The notes beneath the pieces are model-generated. The model was not told the DNA's origin. It worked only from the letters and a program-made list of their open reading frames with translations, and made no database searches. The translations under genes were made by a program, and so were the position numbers. From the NCBI GenBank assembly GCA_028044295.1, contig JAOFSE010000002.1, forward strand, positions 62,001 through 126,000: DNA of 64,000 nucleotides. Direction: 5' to 3'. Positions within the stretch are counted from its first letter, which is position 1. The number at the start of each line of letters is the position of its first letter. Source of the stretch: Sulfurimonas sp. (GTDB taxonomy: Bacteria; Campylobacterota; Campylobacteria; Campylobacterales; Sulfurimonadaceae). Below are positions 1-12,044 of the stretch, one piece after another.

Positions 1-779
1 CTCAAATTGTTAAAAACACAGCTAGCACAATAGCAAGGTGGCAAAGTGTAGGCTTTAACCATGGAGTTATGAACACAGATAACATGTCTATAGATGGTAG
101 AACTATAGACTATGGGCCATTCGCATTTTTGGATGACTACCAGTCAAACTATGTTTGTAACCACACAGACCATGAAGGTAGATACAGTTTTAGAAATCAA
201 CCAGGAATAGCTAAATGGAATCTAGAGCAACTCGCTCGTGCACTCTCACCTATACTGAGCCTCGATAAAGCTACTAAGGTGATAGAGGAGTTTGTAAATT
301 ACTATGAAGATGAATATTTAGATATTATGTATGACAAGATGGGTCTTCATATACGTATAGACACAGATTTAGATCTTTTTGTAGAAATGCTTGAAGCTTT
401 AGAAGCTACTCCAACTGACTACACAAAGTTTTTTAGAATACTCTCTAAGTATGATGGTAATAGAACTGACATATTAGAGTTGGTAGTATTTAAAAAACCT
501 CTGCAAGAGTGGCTAGACAGTTATGATGAGAGATTAAAGCTAGAGACACAAAGTGTTGATGAAAGAAACAAAATGATGCTGGGAGTAAATCCTAAGTTTA
601 TATTGAAAAATCATCTTCTACAAGAGGCTATAGAAAAAGCGAACATAGGTGACTTTAGTATGATTGACGATATGTTAAAAGTCGTACTAACACCTTTTGA
701 TGAACATCATAAGTTTAACTACCTAACAGCCTCAGCACCAGATAATGCTAAAAACATAAAACTCTCCTGTTCTTCTTAA
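1..779 (+). CDS. selO: Protein adenylyltransferase SelO/YdiU family, C-terminal part (5' end outside window)
   Basis: Frame is open from base 3 (QIVKNTASTIARWQSVGFNHGVMNTDNMSIDGRTIDYGPFAF...), typical SelO motif; ends ...LSCSS. Confidence 0.9.
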   Translation, partial: QIVKNTASTIARWQSVGFNHGVMNTDNMSIDGRTIDYGPFAFLDDYQSNYVCNHTDHEGRYSFRNQPGIAKWNLEQLARALSPILSLDKATKVIEEFVNYYEDEYLDIMYDKMGLHIRIDTDLDLFVEMLEALEATPTDYTKFFRILSKYDGNRTDILELVVFKKPLQEWLDSYDERLKLETQSVDERNKMMLGVNPKFILKNHLLQEAIEKANIGDFSMIDDMLKVVLTPFDEHHKFNYLTASAPDNAKNIKLSCSS

Positions 780-807
780 AGCAAATGGTATGTCCTTTGC
801 TTTAAGA
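774..807 (+). terminator. Stem-loop overlapping the 3' end of selO
   Basis: tcttaaagcaaa (774-785) / tttgctttaaga (796-807), perfect 12-bp inverted repeat starting inside the last codons. Confidence 0.6.
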
Positions 808-827
808 GACCTATAAAAAGGTTTTGA

Positions 828-1631
828 ATGATAAAGAAGATTCTCGTATTAATATTAGCTTGTAGTATCTCTCTATTTGGCGATATAAATAAGAATAAAC
901 TAGATCAGCTCAAAATTGGAGCATTGATTGTAAAAGATTTAAATACAAAAAGTATTTTGTACTCGAAATATGCTCAAAAAAGAGTTCGTCCAGCGAGCTT
1001 AACAAAAATCATGACAACCATCCTAGCCATACAACGTGCTGATATGAACCAGCATGTAACAATAACAAGAGCCATGTTACAAGTGAAACCTACAATCGCT
1101 GGTTATCAAGTAGGCGATTCTGTTTTGATGGCTGATTTAGTTAGAGCAGCCATAATTAAATCAGATAATGATGCTGCAAAAGCGATTGCTATTTCCGTTG
1201 GTGCAGGGAATGAAAAAAGATTTATCGCAATGATGAATGATAAAGCTAAACAACTAGGAATGAATAATACTCATTTTATGAATCCATGTGGATTTGACGC
1301 AAGCAAGCATTACTCTTCTCCCGGTGACTTACTGATACTCGCCGAATATGCAATTAGAAGTCCCATGTTCAATAGATTTAGTAAGAGAAGCTCTTATGAA
1401 TATAGAGTACTGAGAAATGGTAAGTTTAAAATGTTTAAAGCGCATACACATAATCGTCTTCTCAATAAATACCAGTATGCAGTTGGTGTAAAAACTGGTT
1501 ATACATCAAAAGCAGGACCGTGTTTAATCGCTCGTGCTAAAAAAGATGGTCAAGATTGTTTGATTGTTATGATGAACTCTCGAGAAAATCGATGGAAAAC
1601 TGCGAAAGAGATTTTTCAGCAGATAATATAA
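828..1631 (+). CDS. D-alanyl-D-alanine carboxypeptidase, S11 family (PBP5/6-like)
   Basis: Signal peptide; SLTK, SDN and KTG motifs. Confidence 0.88.
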   Translation: MIKKILVLILACSISLFGDINKNKLDQLKIGALIVKDLNTKSILYSKYAQKRVRPASLTKIMTTILAIQRADMNQHVTITRAMLQVKPTIAGYQVGDSVLMADLVRAAIIKSDNDAAKAIAISVGAGNEKRFIAMMNDKAKQLGMNNTHFMNPCGFDASKHYSSPGDLLILAEYAIRSPMFNRFSKRSSYEYRVLRNGKFKMFKAHTHNRLLNKYQYAVGVKTGYTSKAGPCLIARAKKDGQDCLIVMMNSRENRWKTAKEIFQQII

Positions 1632-1633
1632 AA

Positions 1634-2272
1634 CTAATTTTTTAAGAAACAACCAACTCCATAAGGCTTTTTAGAATAAAACTTTTTTCCATGTGCTACT
1701 ATGAGAGCGTGGTACTCTTGATATACTTTTAGCAACTCTTTTTTATCTTTTATCTCTTGTGTCAGGGAATCCTGCATCAGCTTTTTCATCTCTTTATATT
1801 TTACTTTTGCATCTACTAGTCCTAGCTCTATGAGAAGTCTCTTTGTGTAAGCATCTATTTTAAACTCACATTGCTCATAACCATACAGAAGTATAGAGTC
1901 TGCTGTTTCTTCACCAATACCTTTTACATGTAGAAGGTCATCTCTACTTGGAGTTCTTCCATCTAGTGCTTTATAGAACTTGATAAAGGCTAAAATATAC
2001 TCAGCTTTTTGATTGTAGTAGCCAGATGGTTTTATGAGAGTTTTGAACTTGTCTATGTTCATGTTTAAAATTACATCTGGGTCTATGGCATTTTCTACAT
2101 GTAGGTTTTGTAAAGATGTTTCAACTGAGGTGAAAGTTGTGTTTTGAGTAAGGATTGAACCAAGTGCTACTTCAAATGTTTTATCTTTTATATTCTCATC
2201 AAAAGTAGGCCACCATCCCTGTGCTCCGTAATGTTTATATAGAGTTTGATAGATGGTGTAGATTTGATTCAT
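1634..2272 (-). CDS. Endonuclease III-like HhH-GPD DNA glycosylase (MagIII-like)
   Basis: LTQNT...LLHVKGIGEETADSILLYGYE...FKIDAYTKRL; HhH-GPD motif with catalytic Asp, no C-terminal 4Fe-4S Cys cluster. Confidence 0.8.
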   Translation of the reverse strand: MNQIYTIYQTLYKHYGAQGWWPTFDENIKDKTFEVALGSILTQNTTFTSVETSLQNLHVENAIDPDVILNMNIDKFKTLIKPSGYYNQKAEYILAFIKFYKALDGRTPSRDDLLHVKGIGEETADSILLYGYEQCEFKIDAYTKRLLIELGLVDAKVKYKEMKKLMQDSLTQEIKDKKELLKVYQEYHALIVAHGKKFYSKKPYGVGCFLKN

Positions 2273-3177
2273 AGGTAGGTTAAAACTTTCACACCTAAAA
2301 ATATTGCTCCTAAAAATACTACAGAAGATATAAACACAAGAGCAGCAACTACTTTAGGAGAACAATCATAAAGCGAAGCAAAATTTACATTCGCAACGGC
2401 TAGTGGCATCATAAGCTCTATAAATATAATCCCTTTTATCATTGGGTCAAGGTCGATGTTGTAAAGAACTAAAAATGTTACAAGAGGTAAAACTATGAAC
2501 TTCACTGACATCACCCAAAGTATGAGTGACTTGCTTAACTCTTTGATTTTTGTACCGTACATGTAGATACCAAACAAAAAGAGTTGCATAGTCATAGAAG
2601 CGTAAGCACCCATCATAAGTGTCTGCATAATAGCCTCCTTTGGTCGGTACTCTATAATACTCAAAGATATTGCTATAAGAGCTGCCCAAAGCATAGGAAG
2701 TTTGAAAACATTTTTAAAAGACTCTTTAGCGTTAAAAGTTCCACGAGAGTAGTAAAAAACTCCAACTGTATAAACTATGAAAATATTTACAAGGTTTATG
2801 ACAGTAGTGTAGGGGATGGACTCTTCACCAAAGATAGCGATACCAAGGGGAATCCCTAAGTTGCCGGTGTTTCCTATAAGTGCAGCCACTGTTGCAATGG
2901 AGCGTTCTTTTTGAGACTTGAAAAGTTTTGTAGCTATAAGTGCTGAGATGATTAGTATGAACACGACTATGACTAAGTAGATAGATGGTGCATAGAGTAG
3001 TGTTACATCTATAGGGCGAATCAAAAGACCCCAAAATGTTAAAAAAACTTGTAAGAAGTAGACATTTATAAGTGTGATGGTTTTATCGTCTATCTTCTCT
3101 TTGAAGCTTCTTTTTGCAAGATAACCCATCAAGATAAAAACATAGACACCTAAAATCGAATATATTATTGAACTCAT
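2269..3177 (-). CDS. AEC (auxin efflux carrier) family transporter
   Basis: Ten-TM-like hydrophobic protein with AEC-type GNTGNLGIPLG; start reassigned to Met10 of the track ORF because of an adjacent -10 box. Confidence 0.75.
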   Translation of the reverse strand: MSSIIYSILGVYVFILMGYLAKRSFKEKIDDKTITLINVYFLQVFLTFWGLLIRPIDVTLLYAPSIYLVIVVFILIISALIATKLFKSQKERSIATVAALIGNTGNLGIPLGIAIFGEESIPYTTVINLVNIFIVYTVGVFYYSRGTFNAKESFKNVFKLPMLWAALIAISLSIIEYRPKEAIMQTLMMGAYASMTMQLFLFGIYMYGTKIKELSKSLILWVMSVKFIVLPLVTFLVLYNIDLDPMIKGIIFIELMMPLAVANVNFASLYDCSPKVVAALVFISSVVFLGAIFLGVKVLTYL

Positions 3178-3202
3178 AGGAGTATTATAATATAATTTCA
3201 TC

Positions 3203-3523
3203 ATGCAAACATTAGAAGATATTAAAAAAATTATAGATGAAGAGTTAGCTGTAATGGTTTACTTTTCAGCACCTACATGTAACGTGTGTCATGCACTAAA
3301 ACCAAAGCTGACAAAAGCTATAGATGATAACTTTGAAGAGTTTAAAACTGTGAGTGTAGATATATCAGTTCAAGAAGACATAGCACCACACTTTAACATC
3401 TTTACTATTCCAACAATACTGATTTTTTTAGATGGTAAAGAGTTTTTGAGAAAGTCTCGTAATATGAGTGTGGATGAGGTTATAAGAGAGATAAAACGCC
3501 CTTATGACATTATGACCTCGTAA
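3203..3523 (+). CDS. Thioredoxin family protein
   Basis: SAPTCNVCHALKPKL (CxxC) and IPTILIFLDGKE thioredoxin fold motifs. Confidence 0.85.
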   Translation: MQTLEDIKKIIDEELAVMVYFSAPTCNVCHALKPKLTKAIDDNFEEFKTVSVDISVQEDIAPHFNIFTIPTILIFLDGKEFLRKSRNMSVDEVIREIKRPYDIMTS

Positions 3524-3525
3524 AC

Positions 3526-4275
3526 TTATTGCATAAAAGCAATAAGTGAAGCAGTAACTGCTACATTGAGAGACTCTACATCTCTTTTCATAGGGATGGC
3601 TATAGAGTCGTTACATAAAAAGTCTACATCTACAGAAACTCCATCACTCTCATTCCCTAGAACATATACAGACTTGTCTGTCTCTTTTACATCATATATA
3701 CTATTTATTGCCTTGGAAGAAAGAGAGTAGATTTTTGTATCTTTAAGTTGTGGTAGTACATCTTCAAGAGCATTACAATAATAAATTGGGATTTTAAAAA
3801 GTGTTCCAGCACTCGCTTTTACAACAAGTGGTGAGATTTTAGCAGATGACTTTTTGGGAAGTATGATTCCATCTACATTACCAGCTGCACATGAGCGAAC
3901 AATCATTCCAAGGTTTTGAGGGTTTTGTATACCATCAAGTGCAATGAGTCTGAACTTATCCATATCTTTTATTTCGTTAGCATCTTGGTAGCTTTGTGAA
4001 ATAATGTCTATGGCAACACCTTGGTCTTGTTTAGCATTTTTACTTATACGACTAAGTGCTTTTTTGTCGTGGTAAAATATTTCTAGATCTCTTTTTTTTG
4101 CAAGCGACTTGATAGTTCTTATAACTTCATCATCTTGGTTTGAATCTGCCATGTGAAGTTTGTATACAGTAACATTTTCATCTTGAAGTGCTTCTATTAC
4201 AACATTTCTTCCATAAAGAGTGATAACTTTTTCAAAGAATTTTTTTCTCATTAAGTACTCTTTTGAATCTTCCAT
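3526..4275 (-). CDS. rlmB: TrmH/SpoU family 2'-O-ribose RNA methyltransferase (RlmB-like)
   Basis: SpoU substrate-binding N-terminus (YGRNVVIEALQ) and motifs NLGMIVRSCAAGNVDG, LGNESDGV, IPMKRDVESLNVAVTASL. Confidence 0.8.
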   Translation of the reverse strand: MEDSKEYLMRKKFFEKVITLYGRNVVIEALQDENVTVYKLHMADSNQDDEVIRTIKSLAKKRDLEIFYHDKKALSRISKNAKQDQGVAIDIISQSYQDANEIKDMDKFRLIALDGIQNPQNLGMIVRSCAAGNVDGIILPKKSSAKISPLVVKASAGTLFKIPIYYCNALEDVLPQLKDTKIYSLSSKAINSIYDVKETDKSVYVLGNESDGVSVDVDFLCNDSIAIPMKRDVESLNVAVTASLIAFMQ

Positions 4276-4284
4276 TGTATTCCT

Positions 4285-5016
4285 TTAGTTTGATTGTATA
4301 TTATATACAATTTCAGTTTTATTTTTAGTAGTGTTAATCTCATGAATACTTAGACCTTCTATTTCAAGCGTCATAAATTTGTCTGTAGAATTGATGTTCT
4401 TCTCAGATACTGCTTTTAGTACTAAACCTCTGTAGGCTTTTGCCCAGTGGCTTACAGTCTTGCCGCCTTTTAAAAATTTTAGTGTTGTATATGGTTTTGT
4501 CACCTTGTAAAATTTGTCATAGTATCCAGCACGAAGGTCGAGAATGTCAGCATCACCTATGAGAAGGTCAAGTTGATAAGTGAACCTATCTTTGTAGAAC
4601 TTATCTGGAACTATATCGCCTATACAATTTCCTTGCTTTACTTTGTAGTTAGCTATAGTGTCTCCACCAAGTATAGGTCCATAGAGGTTTGAGAAGATTA
4701 TAGTATTGTTTTTTACATATTCTTGTGCTTTTGCGGTTAGGGAATTGAACTTTAGGTATTCGTACGCTACTCCATCGTATCTCTCTATAGCGGACATTAG
4801 AGGTGAGTTAAATATGTCACATACATAAGGCTCACAGTCTGAATACTTTTTAAACCCAAACAAACTTTTAATTTTCTCTTCATCTTTAGTTTTAACTATG
4901 TCGTTGTAAGCATTTAAAATACTTTCTCTAGCGGAATTTGAACCTAGTAACTCTTTAGCACTCTCGCATCCACCAGTTTTTTTACCCTCTGCAGGAGAAA
5001 ATAAGACTTTTAACAT
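4285..5016 (-). CDS. YaaA/UPF0246 family (peroxide stress) protein
   Basis: MLKVLFSPAEGKK..., LYGPILGGDTIANYK, DLRAGYYDKFY. Confidence 0.75.
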   Translation of the reverse strand: MLKVLFSPAEGKKTGGCESAKELLGSNSARESILNAYNDIVKTKDEEKIKSLFGFKKYSDCEPYVCDIFNSPLMSAIERYDGVAYEYLKFNSLTAKAQEYVKNNTIIFSNLYGPILGGDTIANYKVKQGNCIGDIVPDKFYKDRFTYQLDLLIGDADILDLRAGYYDKFYKVTKPYTTLKFLKGGKTVSHWAKAYRGLVLKAVSEKNINSTDKFMTLEIEGLSIHEINTTKNKTEIVYNIQSN

Positions 5017-5094
5017 TTCATAGAAACCTTTTCAACAAAAAATAATTTTATATAATTACATTAATATAAATGATATAATAAACAAAATTATACC

Positions 5095-5805
5095 TTGGGG
5101 ATTGTTATGAAACTCTTTTTACTACCTTTTTTGATGTCTTTGTACACACTTTTAAATGCTTCTGCTGTTATAGGCTTCGTTGAGAAAGTTGATGGAAGTG
5201 TTAAAGTCAAACATGAGGGGTCTTTTAAAAAGACTAAGGTTAAAAATGGACTAGACCTCAGAAATGGTGACTTGGTAACGACATCTAAAGACTCTAATGC
5301 AGTTTTAAAACTTGTTGATGGCTCTGTGCTAGCGCTAGCTGAGAGTTCAGCAATCCATTTTACTGAAGGCAGTAATGCCCAACAGACTGAAGGTAAAGTC
5401 TACTATAAAATAACTACGAGAGATGCAAAAAACTCACTAAAGATAAAAACACCATTTGCAATCATAGGTATCAAGGGTACTACATTTGTGATAAATGCAG
5501 GAGAGGATTCGTCTTTAAAACTTCAAGAGGGTTTAGTAGGAGTTAGTAGTCTAAAAGAAGAGTTTAAACTTTACAGAAAAGAAGTACTTCAAGAGTTCAA
5601 TAACTATGTAGATGGTGAAAATGCAGAGTTTGAGAAGTTTAAAAATCCTGATAAAAAACCTGAACCCGTAGTAACAAAAGAGTTTGACCTTGAAGCAATG
5701 CATACTATATCTTTCTCTGACAATGAAGTTCGAGAGAGAGTGCTGAGTAAGGATGATGAAAAAGAGTTTAACTACTTTGAGAAACTTATAAAACCAGCTA
5801 ACTAA
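5095..5805 (+). CDS. FecR-domain exported protein
   Basis: Signal peptide; G...VKVKHEGSFKKTKVKNGLDLRNGDLVTTSKDSNAVLKLVDGSVLALAESS...IIGIKGTTFVI FecR-type pattern. Confidence 0.82.
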   Translation: MGIVMKLFLLPFLMSLYTLLNASAVIGFVEKVDGSVKVKHEGSFKKTKVKNGLDLRNGDLVTTSKDSNAVLKLVDGSVLALAESSAIHFTEGSNAQQTEGKVYYKITTRDAKNSLKIKTPFAIIGIKGTTFVINAGEDSSLKLQEGLVGVSSLKEEFKLYRKEVLQEFNNYVDGENAEFEKFKNPDKKPEPVVTKEFDLEAMHTISFSDNEVRERVLSKDDEKEFNYFEKLIKPAN

Positions 5806-7850
5806 TGAAAGAAAGAATCCTCTATGTAGCTACAGTATTCTTCATACTGATAGTTACTACATTTTTATATCTATATAAAGTAGATCCATTTGAAAAATTT
5901 TCACTTGCTTTTAACGATATAAACTTTGAACTCCAAAGTAAAACTCCCAGTAAAGATGTTGTGTTCGTTGCAGTGGATGAGCCGAGTGTAAATGTATATG
6001 GAAGATGGCCTTGGGACAGAAGTGTTATAGCAAAGGGAATAGAAAAACTAGAAGAAGCAGATGTCCTTCTTCTAGATATGATTTTCTCTGAGACAAGTTC
6101 AAAAGGTGATGACAAAAAACTATCAAATGCTATAGCTAGTGTAAACAATAGTGTATGTGGTTTTTTCCTTAGACATAATACTACTCAGTATATAGGGGAT
6201 AAAGAATTAGAGATACTAAGTGATTCATCACTAGATTTACTTCAGTCACAAATTTCTGAACATAGTAAACCTAATTTTGTACATGCCCCTTATGCTGAGA
6301 TGAATATAATCCCTATTCTCGAGTCATGTACTCTCAGTGGAAGTTTTTCAACTCTAAGTTCTAGTGATCATCTTATGCGTTCTTACCCTATATCTATCTA
6401 TTATAAAAATCTTCTCTATCCATCCTTGGCTATACAAGGATTAAGACTAAAGCTTAATAAAGATATTGAAAGGATTGATGACCTACATGTAAGTATAGGT
6501 GAAAATATAATTGGAGTGGATGCAAAAGGTTTTATCAGATTAAATTATTATAAAAAAGAACAGTATGAGGTTATATCTTTTTTAGATGTTGCACAAGGAA
6601 CTGTGAAACCTGAATACTTTAAAGGCAAGATTGTTATCTTTGGTATAACGGACGTAGGTTCAAGTGATGTAGTAAGTACACCTCTTGGCGCTATGTCTGG
6701 ACCTCTACTACATTACACATTTATTTCAAATCTTTTTCAAGGTCACCTTATAAAAGAGCCTAAAAATATTACTATGATATTTATAGCTCTTATGGTTTTA
6801 ATGCCTCTAATGGTGGTTCTGATTTTTAAGAGAGTATTTTATAGAGTAACTCTTAGTCTTACATCTTACATTGTAGTCTTTGCTTATATCAAGTATCTAT
6901 TTGTATATCAGATGATATACATAGATACCTTTTATCCACTTCTTGGACTTTTGATAAGTATGGTCAGTGTTGAGGTTCTTGCATTTAGTATCCAAGAAAA
7001 CAGTACAAAGTTTTTGCGCAATGCCTTTTCATCTTATCTTTCATCTGATCTACTCAATAAGCTGGTAGAAAATCCTAAGGCACTAGAACTTGGGGGTGAG
7101 TCTAAAGAGTTAAGCATACTATTTAGTGATATCAGGGGTTTTACAAATATATCTGAATCTATGAGCCCATCAGACTTAATCAAGCTTTTAAATAGATACT
7201 TTACACCTATGACTAAGTCAGTTATGGATAATAGTGGCATGCTTGATAAATATATCGGGGATGCTGTTATGGCATTTTTCAATGCTCCTGTTAATGTTAA
7301 AGAGCATGCGGATGCTTCATGTAGGTCAGCTTTAGATATGATAGAAAAACTAAAAAATTTAAATATAGAACTAGAGTCTGAAAATATTGTACCTATACAT
7401 ATAGGAATTGGAATTAACACAGCTGATGTTGTCGTTGGAAATATGGGTTCTGATGAGAGGTTTAATTATACAGTTATTGGTGATGGCGTTAATCTGGCTT
7501 CTAGAATAGAAGGTTTAACAAAAAACTATGGTGTAGAGATATTGATTACTGAGTTTACAGCAAAGAAACTAAACAACACATTTATATATAGGGAAATAGA
7601 ACCTGTGCAAGTAAAAGGAAAAGATGAAGCAGTACTGATTTATGAACTGATGCCTATAAACGAAAAATCAAAAGAAATAAAAATTGCTTATGATAATGCA
7701 ATGAATAGTTATAAAAGTGGTGATTTTGTTGAAGCTGAAATACTTTTTGAAAAGCTGATAGAGGATTATGATGATAATCCATCAAAGTATTTTTTACTAC
7801 ATGTACAAGATAAACACCCTTGGGGTGTTAATAAAATGACAACTAAATAG
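5805..7850 (+). CDS. CHASE2 sensor - class III adenylate/guanylate cyclase
   Basis: N-terminal TM + CHASE2 (DVVFVAVDEPSVNVYGRWPWDRSVIAKGIEKL), three C-terminal TMs, then SILFSDIRGFT...LDKYIGDAVMAFF...FNYTVIGDGVNLASRIEG. Confidence 0.9.
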   Translation: MKERILYVATVFFILIVTTFLYLYKVDPFEKFSLAFNDINFELQSKTPSKDVVFVAVDEPSVNVYGRWPWDRSVIAKGIEKLEEADVLLLDMIFSETSSKGDDKKLSNAIASVNNSVCGFFLRHNTTQYIGDKELEILSDSSLDLLQSQISEHSKPNFVHAPYAEMNIIPILESCTLSGSFSTLSSSDHLMRSYPISIYYKNLLYPSLAIQGLRLKLNKDIERIDDLHVSIGENIIGVDAKGFIRLNYYKKEQYEVISFLDVAQGTVKPEYFKGKIVIFGITDVGSSDVVSTPLGAMSGPLLHYTFISNLFQGHLIKEPKNITMIFIALMVLMPLMVVLIFKRVFYRVTLSLTSYIVVFAYIKYLFVYQMIYIDTFYPLLGLLISMVSVEVLAFSIQENSTKFLRNAFSSYLSSDLLNKLVENPKALELGGESKELSILFSDIRGFTNISESMSPSDLIKLLNRYFTPMTKSVMDNSGMLDKYIGDAVMAFFNAPVNVKEHADASCRSALDMIEKLKNLNIELESENIVPIHIGIGINTADVVVGNMGSDERFNYTVIGDGVNLASRIEGLTKNYGVEILITEFTAKKLNNTFIYREIEPVQVKGKDEAVLIYELMPINEKSKEIKIAYDNAMNSYKSGDFVEAEILFEKLIEDYDDNPSKYFLLHVQDKHPWGVNKMTTK

Positions 7851-7867
7851 ACTGTAAGGAACATGAT

Positions 7868-9796
7868 ATGAAAATAAGTAGAGATTTAGACGCTACAGAA
7901 TTATTAGAATTAATATTTATTTATTTAACTGAAGTTTCATCTTTAAAAGAGCACGATGATATTATGATAGTCTTAGCAGACATGGGTAGAGCTCTAACTA
8001 GTGCTGATAGGTGTAGTGTTTGGATAGCTAATCATGAAACAAAAACAATCTGGACTAAAGTTGCTCATGGAATGGATGCTATAGAATTACCAATGGATGT
8101 AGGAATAGTTGGAAATTCAATTACCTCTGGTGATAAAATCATTATTGATGATGTATATGAGGATGATAGGTTCAATCCTGCTGTTGATAAAAAAACAGGT
8201 TATAGAACTAAGAGTATGATGGTTATCCCTATGTTCGACCAAAACAATAATATAACCGGTGCATTTCAAGTTATAAATAATATTACTGAAAGAGGAGTAT
8301 TTGATAAGAGGGATATGCAGCGTTTAATGCTTGCTAGTACCTATGCAGCTGAGAGTATTATTGCTGCTATGCTTTCTCAAGAGATCGAAGATACGCAAAA
8401 AGAAGTTGTATTTACAATGGGTGCTATAGCTGAGAGTCGATCAAAAGAGACTGGTAATCACGTAAAGAGAGTTGCTGAATACTCTAAAATATTAGCACTA
8501 GCTTATGGTTTGGATGAAGCAGAAGCAGAGTTACTGAAGCAAGCAAGTCCTATGCATGATATTGGTAAGGTGGCTATTGCTGATTCTATATTAAATAAAC
8601 CAGGGAAGTTTACAGATAGTGAATTTGAAATTATGAAGACCCATGCAGAGCTAGGTTATGCAATGATAAAGCATTCAGATAGACCACTACTTCAAGCTGC
8701 ATCTATAGTATCTTATGAACATCACGAAAAATGGAATGGAAAAGGTTATCCACAAGGAACAAGTGGAGAGGATATACATATATATGGGAGAATAACAGCT
8801 ATAGCAGATGTGTTTGATGCACTAGGGTCTGATAGATGTTATAAGAAAGCCTGGAGCGATGAAAAAATATTTAAATTGTTTAAAGAAGAAAGAGGAGAAC
8901 ATTTTGACCCTAACCTAATAGATATGTTCTTTGATAACCTTGATGCAATACTACATGTAAGAGAAAGTTTTAAAGATGTATATATAGAAGAAGAGGAAGT
9001 AGTCGAAAAATTACCTCCATTGCAGACTCTAAAAGTTCTTGGTGCCTATGGAACAAAATCAAAAGACCATGGTACAACTTCATTTGAATTAAATAGATCA
9101 AATGTAATAGACGCTGGGAACTTGCTTAAGCCTTTAGAAGAACACTCAGTAGATATAGAAAATATATGGCTTACACATTCTCATTTAGATCATATAAGTG
9201 ATATTGCATATATATTAGATAATTACTTTGCTTTAAGAAAGAAAACTCTTAATATTAGAGGATTACCTCCAACCATAAAAGCACTCAAGAAACATTTTTT
9301 TAATGATTTGATTTGGCCTGATTTTTCACAAATCAACTTACTAGGCTCATCAGAAAAAGTAGTAAATTATATAGAGATAGAACTTGATAAAGAATATAGT
9401 CTTGGTAACGATGAGAGTATAAAACCTTTTAAAACGGATCACACAGTTCCTAGCTGTGGGTATATATATCAAAAAGACAATTCTTCAATCATAATTACAG
9501 CAGATACATATTCTTTAGAAAATATGATAGATATAGTAGATAAAGATATTAACATCAAGTCAATGATTATAGAGTGTTCGTTTCCATCAAAGATGAAAGA
9601 TCTAGCTAGAGATTCTAAGCATTTAACTCCAAAACTACTTTTTGAAGCATTGAAAAAATTAAAAAGAGATGATATTACTTTATATATAAATCACATAAAA
9701 CCAACATATTTAGAAACAGTAATGTCAGAAATCGAAGAGTTTAAGGGTAAATGGGAACCAATTATATTAAAAGATTCAGATATAGTGGAATTTTAG
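7868..9796 (+). CDS. GAF - HD-GYP - metallo-beta-lactamase/class II cyclic-nucleotide phosphodiesterase fusion
   Basis: GAF-like N-terminus; HDIGKVAI and HHEKWNGKGYP (HD-GYP); C-terminal THSHLDHISDIAYIL (HxHxDH, class II PDE/MBL). Confidence 0.85.
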   Translation: MKISRDLDATELLELIFIYLTEVSSLKEHDDIMIVLADMGRALTSADRCSVWIANHETKTIWTKVAHGMDAIELPMDVGIVGNSITSGDKIIIDDVYEDDRFNPAVDKKTGYRTKSMMVIPMFDQNNNITGAFQVINNITERGVFDKRDMQRLMLASTYAAESIIAAMLSQEIEDTQKEVVFTMGAIAESRSKETGNHVKRVAEYSKILALAYGLDEAEAELLKQASPMHDIGKVAIADSILNKPGKFTDSEFEIMKTHAELGYAMIKHSDRPLLQAASIVSYEHHEKWNGKGYPQGTSGEDIHIYGRITAIADVFDALGSDRCYKKAWSDEKIFKLFKEERGEHFDPNLIDMFFDNLDAILHVRESFKDVYIEEEEVVEKLPPLQTLKVLGAYGTKSKDHGTTSFELNRSNVIDAGNLLKPLEEHSVDIENIWLTHSHLDHISDIAYILDNYFALRKKTLNIRGLPPTIKALKKHFFNDLIWPDFSQINLLGSSEKVVNYIEIELDKEYSLGNDESIKPFKTDHTVPSCGYIYQKDNSSIIITADTYSLENMIDIVDKDINIKSMIIECSFPSKMKDLARDSKHLTPKLLFEALKKLKRDDITLYINHIKPTYLETVMSEIEEFKGKWEPIILKDSDIVEF

Positions 9797-9806
9797 TGAA
9801 AAACTC

Positions 9807-9835
9807 TTGACATTGAAAACAGATTTGTCTATAAT
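9807..9835 (+). promoter_or_regulatory. Consensus sigma70 promoter of the tRNA cluster
   Basis: ttgaca (9807-9812), 17-nt spacer, tataat (9830-9835), directly upstream of tRNA-Thr. Confidence 0.8.
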
Positions 9836-9852
9836 TCTGGCTCAATTTCGAT

Positions 9853-9929
9853 GCTGTCATAGCTCAGTTGGCTAGAGCAGTTGATTTGTAATCAACAGGC
9901 CCGGGGTTCAAATCCTCGTGACAGCACCA
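9853..9929 (+). tRNA. tRNA-Thr(UGU), CCA encoded
   Basis: Cloverleaf: acceptor gctgtca/tgacagc, anticodon loop ttgtaat, CCA. Confidence 0.96.
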
Positions 9930-9975
9930 TTGAAATAGAATATTAGAAACAGTGTTAGACCAGATAATAAATTTC

Positions 9976-10060
9976 GGTGAGATAGTCAAGTGGCCAACGA
10001 CGGCAGACTGTAAATCTGCTCCCTATGGGTTCAGAGGTTCGACTCCTCTTCTCACCACCA
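9976..10060 (+). tRNA. tRNA-Tyr(GUA), CCA encoded
   Basis: Acceptor ggtgaga/tctcacc, anticodon GTA in gactgtaaatc, long variable arm, CCA. Confidence 0.96.
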
Positions 10061-10075
10061 TTTTCAATAGAGTCT

Positions 10076-10151
<76 letters not shown>

Positions 10152-10270
10152 TTGAATATTCTGGAAGCTGAAGTACAATTTCAAAAATTAACTTCATATA
10201 TAGTAGTTTTAAAAATTACTTATATAGCTTTTCATCTAATCAAAAAACTAATTTACTATTAAATATAGAA

Positions 10271-10418
10271 TCATGCAATTATTGCTTAAAACTTGACTAC
10301 CAAAAGCTGTCGTGGCTCAGGGGTAGAGCACTTCCTTGGTAAGGAAGAGGCCGTGGGTTCAATTCCCATCGTCAGCACCATACATAAGTTTTATATAATT
10401 TAAGCAATAATTGAATGA
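10271..10418. repeat. 20-nt inverted repeat (19/20) flanking tRNA-Thr(GGU)
   Basis: tcatgcaattattgcttaaa (10271-10290) versus tttaagcaataattgaatga (10399-10418). Confidence 0.85.
10306..10380 (+). tRNA. tRNA-Thr(GGU), CCA encoded
   Basis: Acceptor gctgtcg/cgtcagc (one T-T mismatch), anticodon loop ttggtaa, CCA. Confidence 0.94.
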
Positions 10419-10468
10419 TTTTTGGGTATAATCCCGTTTCAATTCACAATTTAAGTAGGAGAAACACT

Positions 10469-11668
10469 ATGGCAAAAGAAAAGTTTGAGCGTAATAAACC
10501 GCATGTAAACATTGGTACTATTGGTCACGTTGATCATGGTAAAACAACACTAACAGCAGCAATTACTGCAGTATTAGCAGTATCTAATGGTGCTAAACTA
10601 ATGGACTATGATGCAATCGATAATGCACCAGAAGAGAGAGAGCGTGGTATTACTATCGCTACTTCACACGTTGAGTATGAGACTGATGGTCGTCACTACG
10701 CGCATGTTGACTGTCCAGGTCACGCGGATTATGTTAAGAACATGATTACAGGTGCTGCTCAAATGGATGGTGCTATTCTAGTTGTTTCTGCAGCGGATGG
10801 CCCAATGCCACAAACTCGTGAGCATATCCTTCTTTCTAAGCAAGTTGGTGTTCCATATATCGTTGTTTTCATGAACAAAGAAGATATGGTTGATGATGAA
10901 GAACTAATGGAACTAGTAGAGATGGAAATCCGTGAACTACTTGACATGTATGACTTCCCAGGTGACGATACTCCAATCGTAGCTGGATCAGCTCTTAAAG
11001 CTCTTGAAGAAGCAAAAACTGGTACTCTTGGTGAGTGGTCAGCTAAAATTGTTGAGCTTATGTCTCAAGTAGATGCTTATATTCCTGAGCCTACTCGTGA
11101 AACTGATAAAGATTTCTTAATGCCTGTTGAGGATGTTTTCTCAATCTCTGGTCGTGGAACAGTTGTTACTGGTCGTATCGAACGTGGTGTTATCAAAGTT
11201 GGTGAAGAAGTTGAAATCGTTGGTATCAAAGATACACAAAAAACAACTGTAACTGGTGTTGAAATGTTCCGTAAAGAAATGGAACAAGGTGAAGCTGGTG
11301 ATAACTGTGGTATTCTAATTCGTGGTATAGATAAAGATGCTGTTGAACGTGGTCAAGTACTATGTAAGCCAGGTACTATTAATCCTCACACTAAATTTAC
11401 TGCTGAGATCTATGTACTAAGTAAAGATGAGGGTGGTCGTCATACTCCATTCTTCTCAAACTACCGTCCTCAGTTCTACGTACGTACTACTGATGTTACA
11501 GGTGCAATCACATTACCAGAAGGTACTGAGATGGTTATGCCAGGTGATAATGTTTCAATTTCTGTTGAACTAATTCACCCAATTGCAATGGAACAAGGTA
11601 CTAAGTTCGCTATCCGTGAGGGTGGAAGAACTGTTGGTGCTGGTGTTGTTGCTGAGATTATTGCATAG
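10469..11668 (+). CDS. tuf: Elongation factor Tu
   Basis: [33 protein letters not shown]...; start at ATG 10469 rather than the track start 10415. Confidence 0.98.
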
Positions 11669-11713
11669 TTAGCTTAGGCTAATTTGCAATATCTTTTTAT
11701 AAGGTAAATTAAC

Positions 11714-11866
11714 ATGAGAGAAGCAATTCACTTAGGTTGTGAGAAATGTACTAGACGTAACTATCACACAACTAAAAACAAAAAAACTCATACTGAAAAA
11801 TTTTCAGTAAAGAAATACTGTAAGTTCTGTAAAGAACATACAACACATAAAGAGATGAAACTGTAA
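11714..11866 (+). CDS. rpmG: 50S ribosomal protein L33
   Basis: MREAIHLGCEKCTRRNYHTTKNKKTHTEKFSVKKYCKFCKEHTTHKEMKL; not in ORF track. Confidence 0.95.
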   Translation: MREAIHLGCEKCTRRNYHTTKNKKTHTEKFSVKKYCKFCKEHTTHKEMKL

Positions 11867-11904
11867 TAACAGTTTTGTTTTTTTATTTAGGGCTATAGCT
11901 CTTT

Positions 11905-11980
11905 AGGCGTGTAGCTCCAATGGTAGAGCACTGGATTCCAAATCCAGGTGTTGGGAGTTCGAGTCTCTCCACGCCTGCCA
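11905..11980 (+). tRNA. tRNA-Trp(CCA), CCA encoded
   Basis: Acceptor aggcgtg/cacgcct, anticodon loop ttccaaa, between rpmG and secE. Confidence 0.96.
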
Positions 11981-12044
11981 CACATTTATTAGATGTAGAG
12001 CTTATGAGCTTTATATTTAATTAATGAATATATAGGAAAGTTTA

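Follow-up and report, generated by a model that had tools for sequence, protein, structure and literature searches.

The operon and its surroundings

The window analyzed here is a 64,000-nucleotide stretch of a Sulfurimonas sp. genome (assembly GCA_028044295.1; 1.91 Mb in 34 contigs, 94% complete). Near its left end, three genes follow one another on the plus strand. The first (5107..5805) encodes an exported FecR-domain protein of 232 amino acids, and the second (5805..7850) a putative membrane-bound class III adenylate cyclase of 681 amino acids with a CHASE2 domain. The third (7868..9796) encodes a protein of 642 amino acids, a candidate double-headed phosphodiesterase (PDE), in which a GAF domain, an HD-GYP domain and a class II cyclic nucleotide PDE domain of the metallo-beta-lactamase (MBL) fold are joined in that order. 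The FecR stop codon and the cyclase ATG have one base in common (TAATG at 5803-5807), and 17 nt, with AAGGAA inside, separate the cyclase stop from the ATG of the third gene. A sequence-only reading of this DNA had described three consecutive genes, the one starting at 5805 overlapping the preceding stop, and had assigned them to FecR, CHASE2 cyclase and HD-GYP plus class II PDE families. The open reading frames were found there, all on one strand, and domain searches bore out the assignments, all above the Pfam gathering scores (FecR, 48 bits; CHASE2, 141; Guanylate_cyc, 95; GAF, 45; HD_5, 109; PDEase_II, 60).

The FecR, cyclase and fusion genes appear to form a tight operon and are predicted to be co-transcribed. 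The arrangement is not due to chance, since full-length orthologues (63-74% identity) are present in about 25 genomes of the same genus. Intergenic gaps of about -32 to 60 nt are retained in most relatives, where the proteins are 55-80% identical. On the 5′ side, on the opposite strand, lie two genes that by their sequence are probably of the yaaA type and for an RNA methyltransferase. On the 3′ side, tRNA-like sequences are followed by EF-Tu.

The FecR protein and the cyclase

The FecR gene probably starts at ATG 5107 rather than at the listed TTG 5095. We prefer this start because GGGGAT stands directly upstream of it and a hydrophobic, signal-type segment begins there (residues 4-22 by hydropathy). 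Pfam shows PF04773 alone in the protein (at about 5272-5538). The gene adjoins the cyclase gene on its 5′ side in most related loci. An anti-sigma function, as in FecI/FecR signaling, was considered and rejected: a reading of the open reading frames at 1-12000 made no ECF sigma factor apparent nearby.

In the cyclase, CHASE2 (PF05226, 141 bits) occupies residues 19-330 (about 5859-6794) and the catalytic domain (PF00211, 95 bits) lies at about 7104-7631. Crude hydropathy puts hydrophobic segments at residues 5-23, 322-340 and 371-389, and hence CHASE2 between membrane helices. The roles of the metal-binding and purine-specifying residues are well established for class III cyclases. The metal-binding aspartates are found in FSDIRGF (440-446) and KYIGD (482-486), as aligned with CyaB of P. 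aeruginosa (3r5g) and bPAC (5mbg). As in both enzymes, Lys and Thr occupy the purine-specifying places, which is the pattern of adenylate cyclases, and the Asn and Arg are present as well. With these residues in place, the 681-residue protein is very probably an adenylate cyclase. It is the sole PF00211 match and the sole CHASE2 match in the host genome. Class I cyclases as a hidden source of cAMP were rejected, as none was found in the host or in 59 relatives (60 genomes searched).

The GAF and HD-GYP half of the fusion protein

The third protein matches PmGH of Persephonella marina (4mcw) over residues 11-370 with 352 bits, and over the HD-GYP region with 218 bits. For PmGH, which combines GAF and HD-GYP, PDE activity on c-di-GMP has been demonstrated, and the protein holds a tri-iron centre (PMC4159591). 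The two have the same organization (GAF, long helix, HD-GYP), whereas the solved PmGH chain, of 369 amino acids, has no MBL domain and its second-shell residue D183 is Ser in the window protein. The HD-GYP domain (8423..8917, residues 186-350) carries all eight PmGH metal ligands (E194, H198, H230, D231, H259, H285, H286 and D314). It also has the E194-T195-G196 signature of the trinuclear, PmGH-like subgroup, the GYP motif itself (G293-Y294-P295), and R323 and K326, the equivalents of the PmGH substrate residues R314 and K317. The eight ligands and E-T-G do not vary among 37 fused, 11 split and 29 Bacillota relatives, and GYP is invariant too. We consider it highly probable, on this conservation, that the domain is active on c-di-GMP. 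The genome has 45 GGDEF matches, as against one class III cyclase, so c-di-GMP appears to be in use in the host.

The GAF-HD-GYP half resembles free-standing Paenibacillus proteins (about 54% identity) more than it does the HD-GYP of a second kind of fusion described below. The Paenibacillus genes have no cyclase within about 6 kb. In Peribacillus (L058:5974-13104), one operon combines GAF-HD-GYP with a CHASE2 cyclase and a FecR protein of great length; no MBL was found in it.

What does the GAF domain (7967..8353, residues 34-162; PF01590, 45 bits) read? At E<=0.001 its matches in the PDB are PmGH, the GAFs of PDE2, PDE5, PDE6 and PDE10, the cGMP-specific PDE entry 5w10, and the cyanobacterial-type adenylate cyclase 1ykd. 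Apart from PmGH, then, every match is a GAF of a cyclic mononucleotide (cNMP) PDE or an adenylate cyclase. In PDE2 and PDE5, only one of the two GAFs is known to bind nucleotide, and it is the one matched. Residues D107, G111, Y112, T114, N137, F145 and D149 are invariant in the 37 fused relatives, and the D-x-x-T-G-Y-x-T stretch and N...F...D are kept. The NKFDE motif is incomplete (NN...F...DM). As a control we took the only other PF01590 GAF of the genome, which belongs to a kinase cluster. It matches the same solved cNMP GAFs about equally well, and the motif was thereupon dropped as proof of cAMP binding. The result is better worded as predicted membership of the cNMP-GAF family than as binding of cAMP.

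A literature precedent is stronger evidence for cAMP reading than the structure matches. Tlr0485 of Thermosynechococcus, likewise a GAF followed by HD-GYP according to its description, is reported to hydrolyze c-di-GMP and to be activated by cAMP (Enomoto 2020, cited in PMC8846402). Unlike the window protein, it is described there without a class II PDE. Taking precedent and family together, we lean toward a GAF that reads cAMP.

The class II PDE domain

The C-terminal domain (9020..9793, residues 385-642) scores 60.2 bits with PDEase_II (PF02112), against a curated cut-off of 23.7. The HxHxDH motif noted in the sequence-only reading is TH-S-H-L-D-H at residues 436-442. It supplies H437, H439, D441 and H442, to which H525, D546 and H609 add the His, Asp and His of the dinuclear site. 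Across 71 sequences the seven ligands are invariant except for D441, which is E in three. Loss of metal ligands had been named as grounds for abandoning the two-headed proposal; the HD-GYP and MBL heads both have full ligand sets.

Yeast PDE1 (4ojv), a stand-alone eukaryotic enzyme, is the top solved relative by sequence (E 1.9e-12, about 21% identity), with the FNDLIWPD block common to both. It is also ranked first by Foldseek (E 5.6e-16, TMq 0.79) for the model of the domain, which has a pLDDT of 95.9. YhfI and RNase Z come close behind, and Apyc1 and PhnP are also found below. The domain as RNase Z was rejected: it scores 45.9 bits with the NCBIfam RNase_Z model, far below the cut-off of 292.95, and PDE1 comes first by both sequence and fold. 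The domain is likely to be a cyclic mononucleotide PDE. The AF2 model of the whole protein has a pLDDT of 86 and a flexible linker at 374-383; its pTM is low (0.45), and the relative placement of the two heads is therefore not readable from it.

Two other loci (L057:9303-10846 and L029:2640-4116) have a tandem MBL pair. The second copy has Glu for the Asp of HxHxDH (THCHMEH) and is perhaps regulatory or altered in its metal.

Linkage of the MBL domain to cyclases

In 99 related genomes, the MBL and a PF00211 cyclase occur together in 44 and are both missing in 41; the 14 discordant genomes divide into seven and seven. The association (Fisher p 2e-13 overall and 2e-7 within the genus) is uncorrected for kinship. 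A CHASE2 gene lies within 6 kb of 29 of the 54 MBL genes, where about 1% per gene is expected. The other 25 are made up of 16 in genomes with CHASE2 elsewhere (on other contigs or further off) and nine in genomes without it. That the MBL is inherited together with cyclases speaks for a cyclic mononucleotide as its substrate.

The linkage takes several forms. The window has FecR, a type 1 cyclase and the GAF-HD-GYP-MBL fusion. The same order with the last gene split in two is seen in G034, G055, L052 and L054. In G046, G017 and G049, the neighbor of the fused gene is a cyclase of the distant type 2, accompanied by TPR-like and FecR genes, and in G075 and G092 an unfused MBL lies directly behind a type 2 cyclase. 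In L057 the order is GAF-HD-GYP, cyclase, MBL, MBL. Because the linkage persists even where the cyclase has been exchanged, it carries more weight than would conservation of gene order by itself.

The MBL can also outlive the cyclase. In seven genomes of the same genus, some of them incomplete, the MBL is present and a class III cyclase was not found. An intact MBL is without one in G015 (99% complete) and G027 (93%); in G009, also one of the seven, the MBL is truncated (L210:5744-6307). Five of these genomes were among the 60 searched for class I cyclases, and none was found in them. A lone MBL occupies the corresponding chromosomal position, next to the yaaA/methyltransferase genes or EF-Tu, at L183:6729-7520, L184:7166-7969, L185:4358-5149, L186:148-963, L187:138-1010, L188:149-940 and L211:84-776. 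In a tree of MBL domains such lone copies nest inside the fused clade, which is the ground for saying that the domain outlives its partner. The likely course of events at these loci is a loss of cyclase and HD-GYP that spared the MBL. For the same reason, a stand-alone MBL as the ancestral Sulfurimonas state was rejected. Retention of the MBL suggests a wider role for it or a supply of cAMP from another source.

A mirror-image fusion

Ten genomes, mostly of other families, encode a protein of about 757-808 amino acids in which the MBL domain is N-terminal, followed by GAF and HD-GYP (L174:7774-10173, L177:4848-7175, L176:7008-9281 and seven more loci). A CHASE2 cyclase lies within 6 kb in nine of the ten. 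The GAF is of the same cNMP type, with an NKFDE motif fuller than in the window's GAF. In the HD-GYP domain, the place of E194 is taken mostly by Tyr, otherwise by His or Phe, and the Tyr subgroup has an insertion of more than 100 amino acids inside the domain. Of the HD-GYP subgroups defined in PMC4159591, the mirror domain resembles the one to which the window's domain does not belong. In the MBL tree, the Sulfurimonas-type domains, fused and unfused, form one clade (100/100) and the mirror type falls outside it. Since the HD-GYP of the mirror fusion is of another subgroup, the fusions look independent, and HD-GYP and MBL would have been joined at least twice.

A possible relay from cAMP to c-di-GMP

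We propose, with about even confidence, a self-limiting relay. CHASE2, in the periplasm, would sense an outside signal, probably in partnership with the exported FecR protein, and set the output of the cytoplasmic adenylate cyclase. The cAMP made would bind the GAF domain of the fusion protein and gate, most likely activate, its HD-GYP domain, which would degrade c-di-GMP. The class II PDE on the same chain would hydrolyze the cAMP and so end the signal. The sequence-only reading had held that the protein could cross-wire cyclic mononucleotide and c-di-GMP levels. That two-messenger reading is plausible and supported in part. The clues favor one direction, from cAMP to c-di-GMP, over a symmetric cross-wiring, because the GAF resembles those that bind cAMP or cGMP and because of the Tlr0485 precedent.

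The wider proposal, which we put forward tentatively and hold a little less firmly than the relay, is that a single polypeptide degrades c-di-GMP under gating by cAMP and itself carries the off-switch for that cAMP. It would be fed by the only adenylate cyclase of the genome from within the same operon, and would have been built at least twice in Campylobacterota with the heads in opposite order. In this proposal, cAMP acts on c-di-GMP directly, without a CRP regulator. None of the CRP type was found in the genome: a Pfam search gave three proteins with a cNMP-binding domain, none with a DNA-binding domain. One is a transporter of the MMPL type, another a membrane protein in which Fer4_5 scores weakly, and the third is small and encoded next to a putative permease gene. 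Two of the three are possible cAMP readers, since they keep the GE...R motif of the phosphate-binding cassette. The large membrane proteins of this genome at L215:3042-5441 and L214:2961-5690, one the MMPL transporter and the other the protein with the weak Fer4_5 hit, carry the cNMP-binding domain at their end and are possible further readers of cAMP.

Other explanations

The two heads may instead be independent hydrolases on one chain. The MBL would remove the cAMP of the cyclase, the HD-GYP would remove c-di-GMP, and the GAF would read some other small molecule. One stimulus would then lower both messengers with no direct gating by cAMP. The breadth of the GAF similarity, as revealed by the control GAF, speaks for this, as does the occurrence of the GAF-HD-GYP half away from any nearby cyclase in Paenibacillus. 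The ligands of GAF domains do vary, being GDP in the case of DcpA (PMC8846402). Yet the mirror fusions also have a cNMP-type GAF, with the fuller motif, and Tlr0485, which has the same layout, is described as responding to cAMP (PMC8846402). We judge this explanation unlikely, while giving it more weight than any other alternative.

It is improbable that the MBL acts on another phosphodiester (e.g., 2′,3′-cyclic nucleotides, pGpG or an RNA end) and is linked to the cyclase indirectly. The fold is common to RNase Z, PhnP and YhfI, and the domain persists alone where no cyclase was found. Both its best-scoring family and its highest-ranked solved relative are nevertheless cyclic nucleotide PDEs, not RNase Z, and the domain adjoins cyclases in several arrangements.

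An ordinary neighborhood of unrelated genes is a very improbable reading. In a scan of the operon region against shuffled sequence, promoter-like and terminator-like sites were at the level of the shuffles, and the sole perfect promoter lies at 9807, ahead of the tRNA genes. The short gaps are kept in most relatives, however, and the same partners have been fused recurrently.

A Pycsar-type defense module, with a class III cyclase as the source of cCMP or cUMP, or an Apyc1-like counter-defense enzyme is the least credible alternative and was rejected: the cyclase domain does match PADLOC PycC models (up to 96 bits) and the MBL has Apyc1 structures among its matches by fold, but the PycC likeness is confined to the catalytic domain, the operon contains no effector gene and its proteins match no defense effector model, and the CHASE2 sensor, FecR partner, adenylate-type residues and conserved place beside yaaA and tRNA/EF-Tu genes all argue against it.

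Relation to known systems

As a rule, cAMP and c-di-GMP influence each other indirectly, by way of CRP and transcription. To our knowledge, proteins by which one messenger directly controls the other are few (Bd1971, Lcd1 and Tlr0485). At this locus two adjacent genes encode a probable maker, a likely reader and a probable eraser of cAMP, together with a probable eraser of c-di-GMP. A relay of the proposed kind would provide a possible answer to the role of cAMP in Campylobacterota, and the protein is compact enough to be offered for in vitro study of a pulse-like, self-terminating signal.

The cluster as such is known. Adenylate cyclases of Campylobacterota have CHASE2 and are mostly clustered with a cAMP-hydrolyzing PDE, FecR and a TPR protein, for which one pathway has already been proposed (2022; PMC9239204). 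The phylum, the CHASE2 cyclase, the FecR protein and the cAMP-type PDE in one cluster are the same as here, whereas the window locus has no TPR gene, and the main text of that paper mentions neither a PDE joined to GAF-HD-GYP nor the mirror-image form. No protein with the two hydrolases together turned up in the literature searched.

Other systems resemble parts of the window protein. Bd1971 of Bdellovibrio is a cAMP-sensing c-di-GMP PDE (PMC6717892) and thus also places c-di-GMP breakdown under cAMP control in one protein; it does so with a cNMP-binding domain and EAL, not GAF-HD-GYP, and has no cAMP-hydrolyzing domain. Lcd1 is described as a cAMP-activated GAF-GGDEF protein (PMC8846402). Rv1339, an atypical class II PDE (PMC9293780), is likewise a bacterial cAMP PDE of the MBL fold, but it is stand-alone and of the PF12706 group. 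In two Bacillota metagenome-assembled genomes (L085:1-6910 and L087:673-7110), genes for FecR, a CHASE2 cyclase and an MBL of another family (GVRGS type; PF12706 in L085), with one further gene, form a cluster divergent from the GAF-HD-GYP orthologue; the circuit may be the same one, with another PDE in it.
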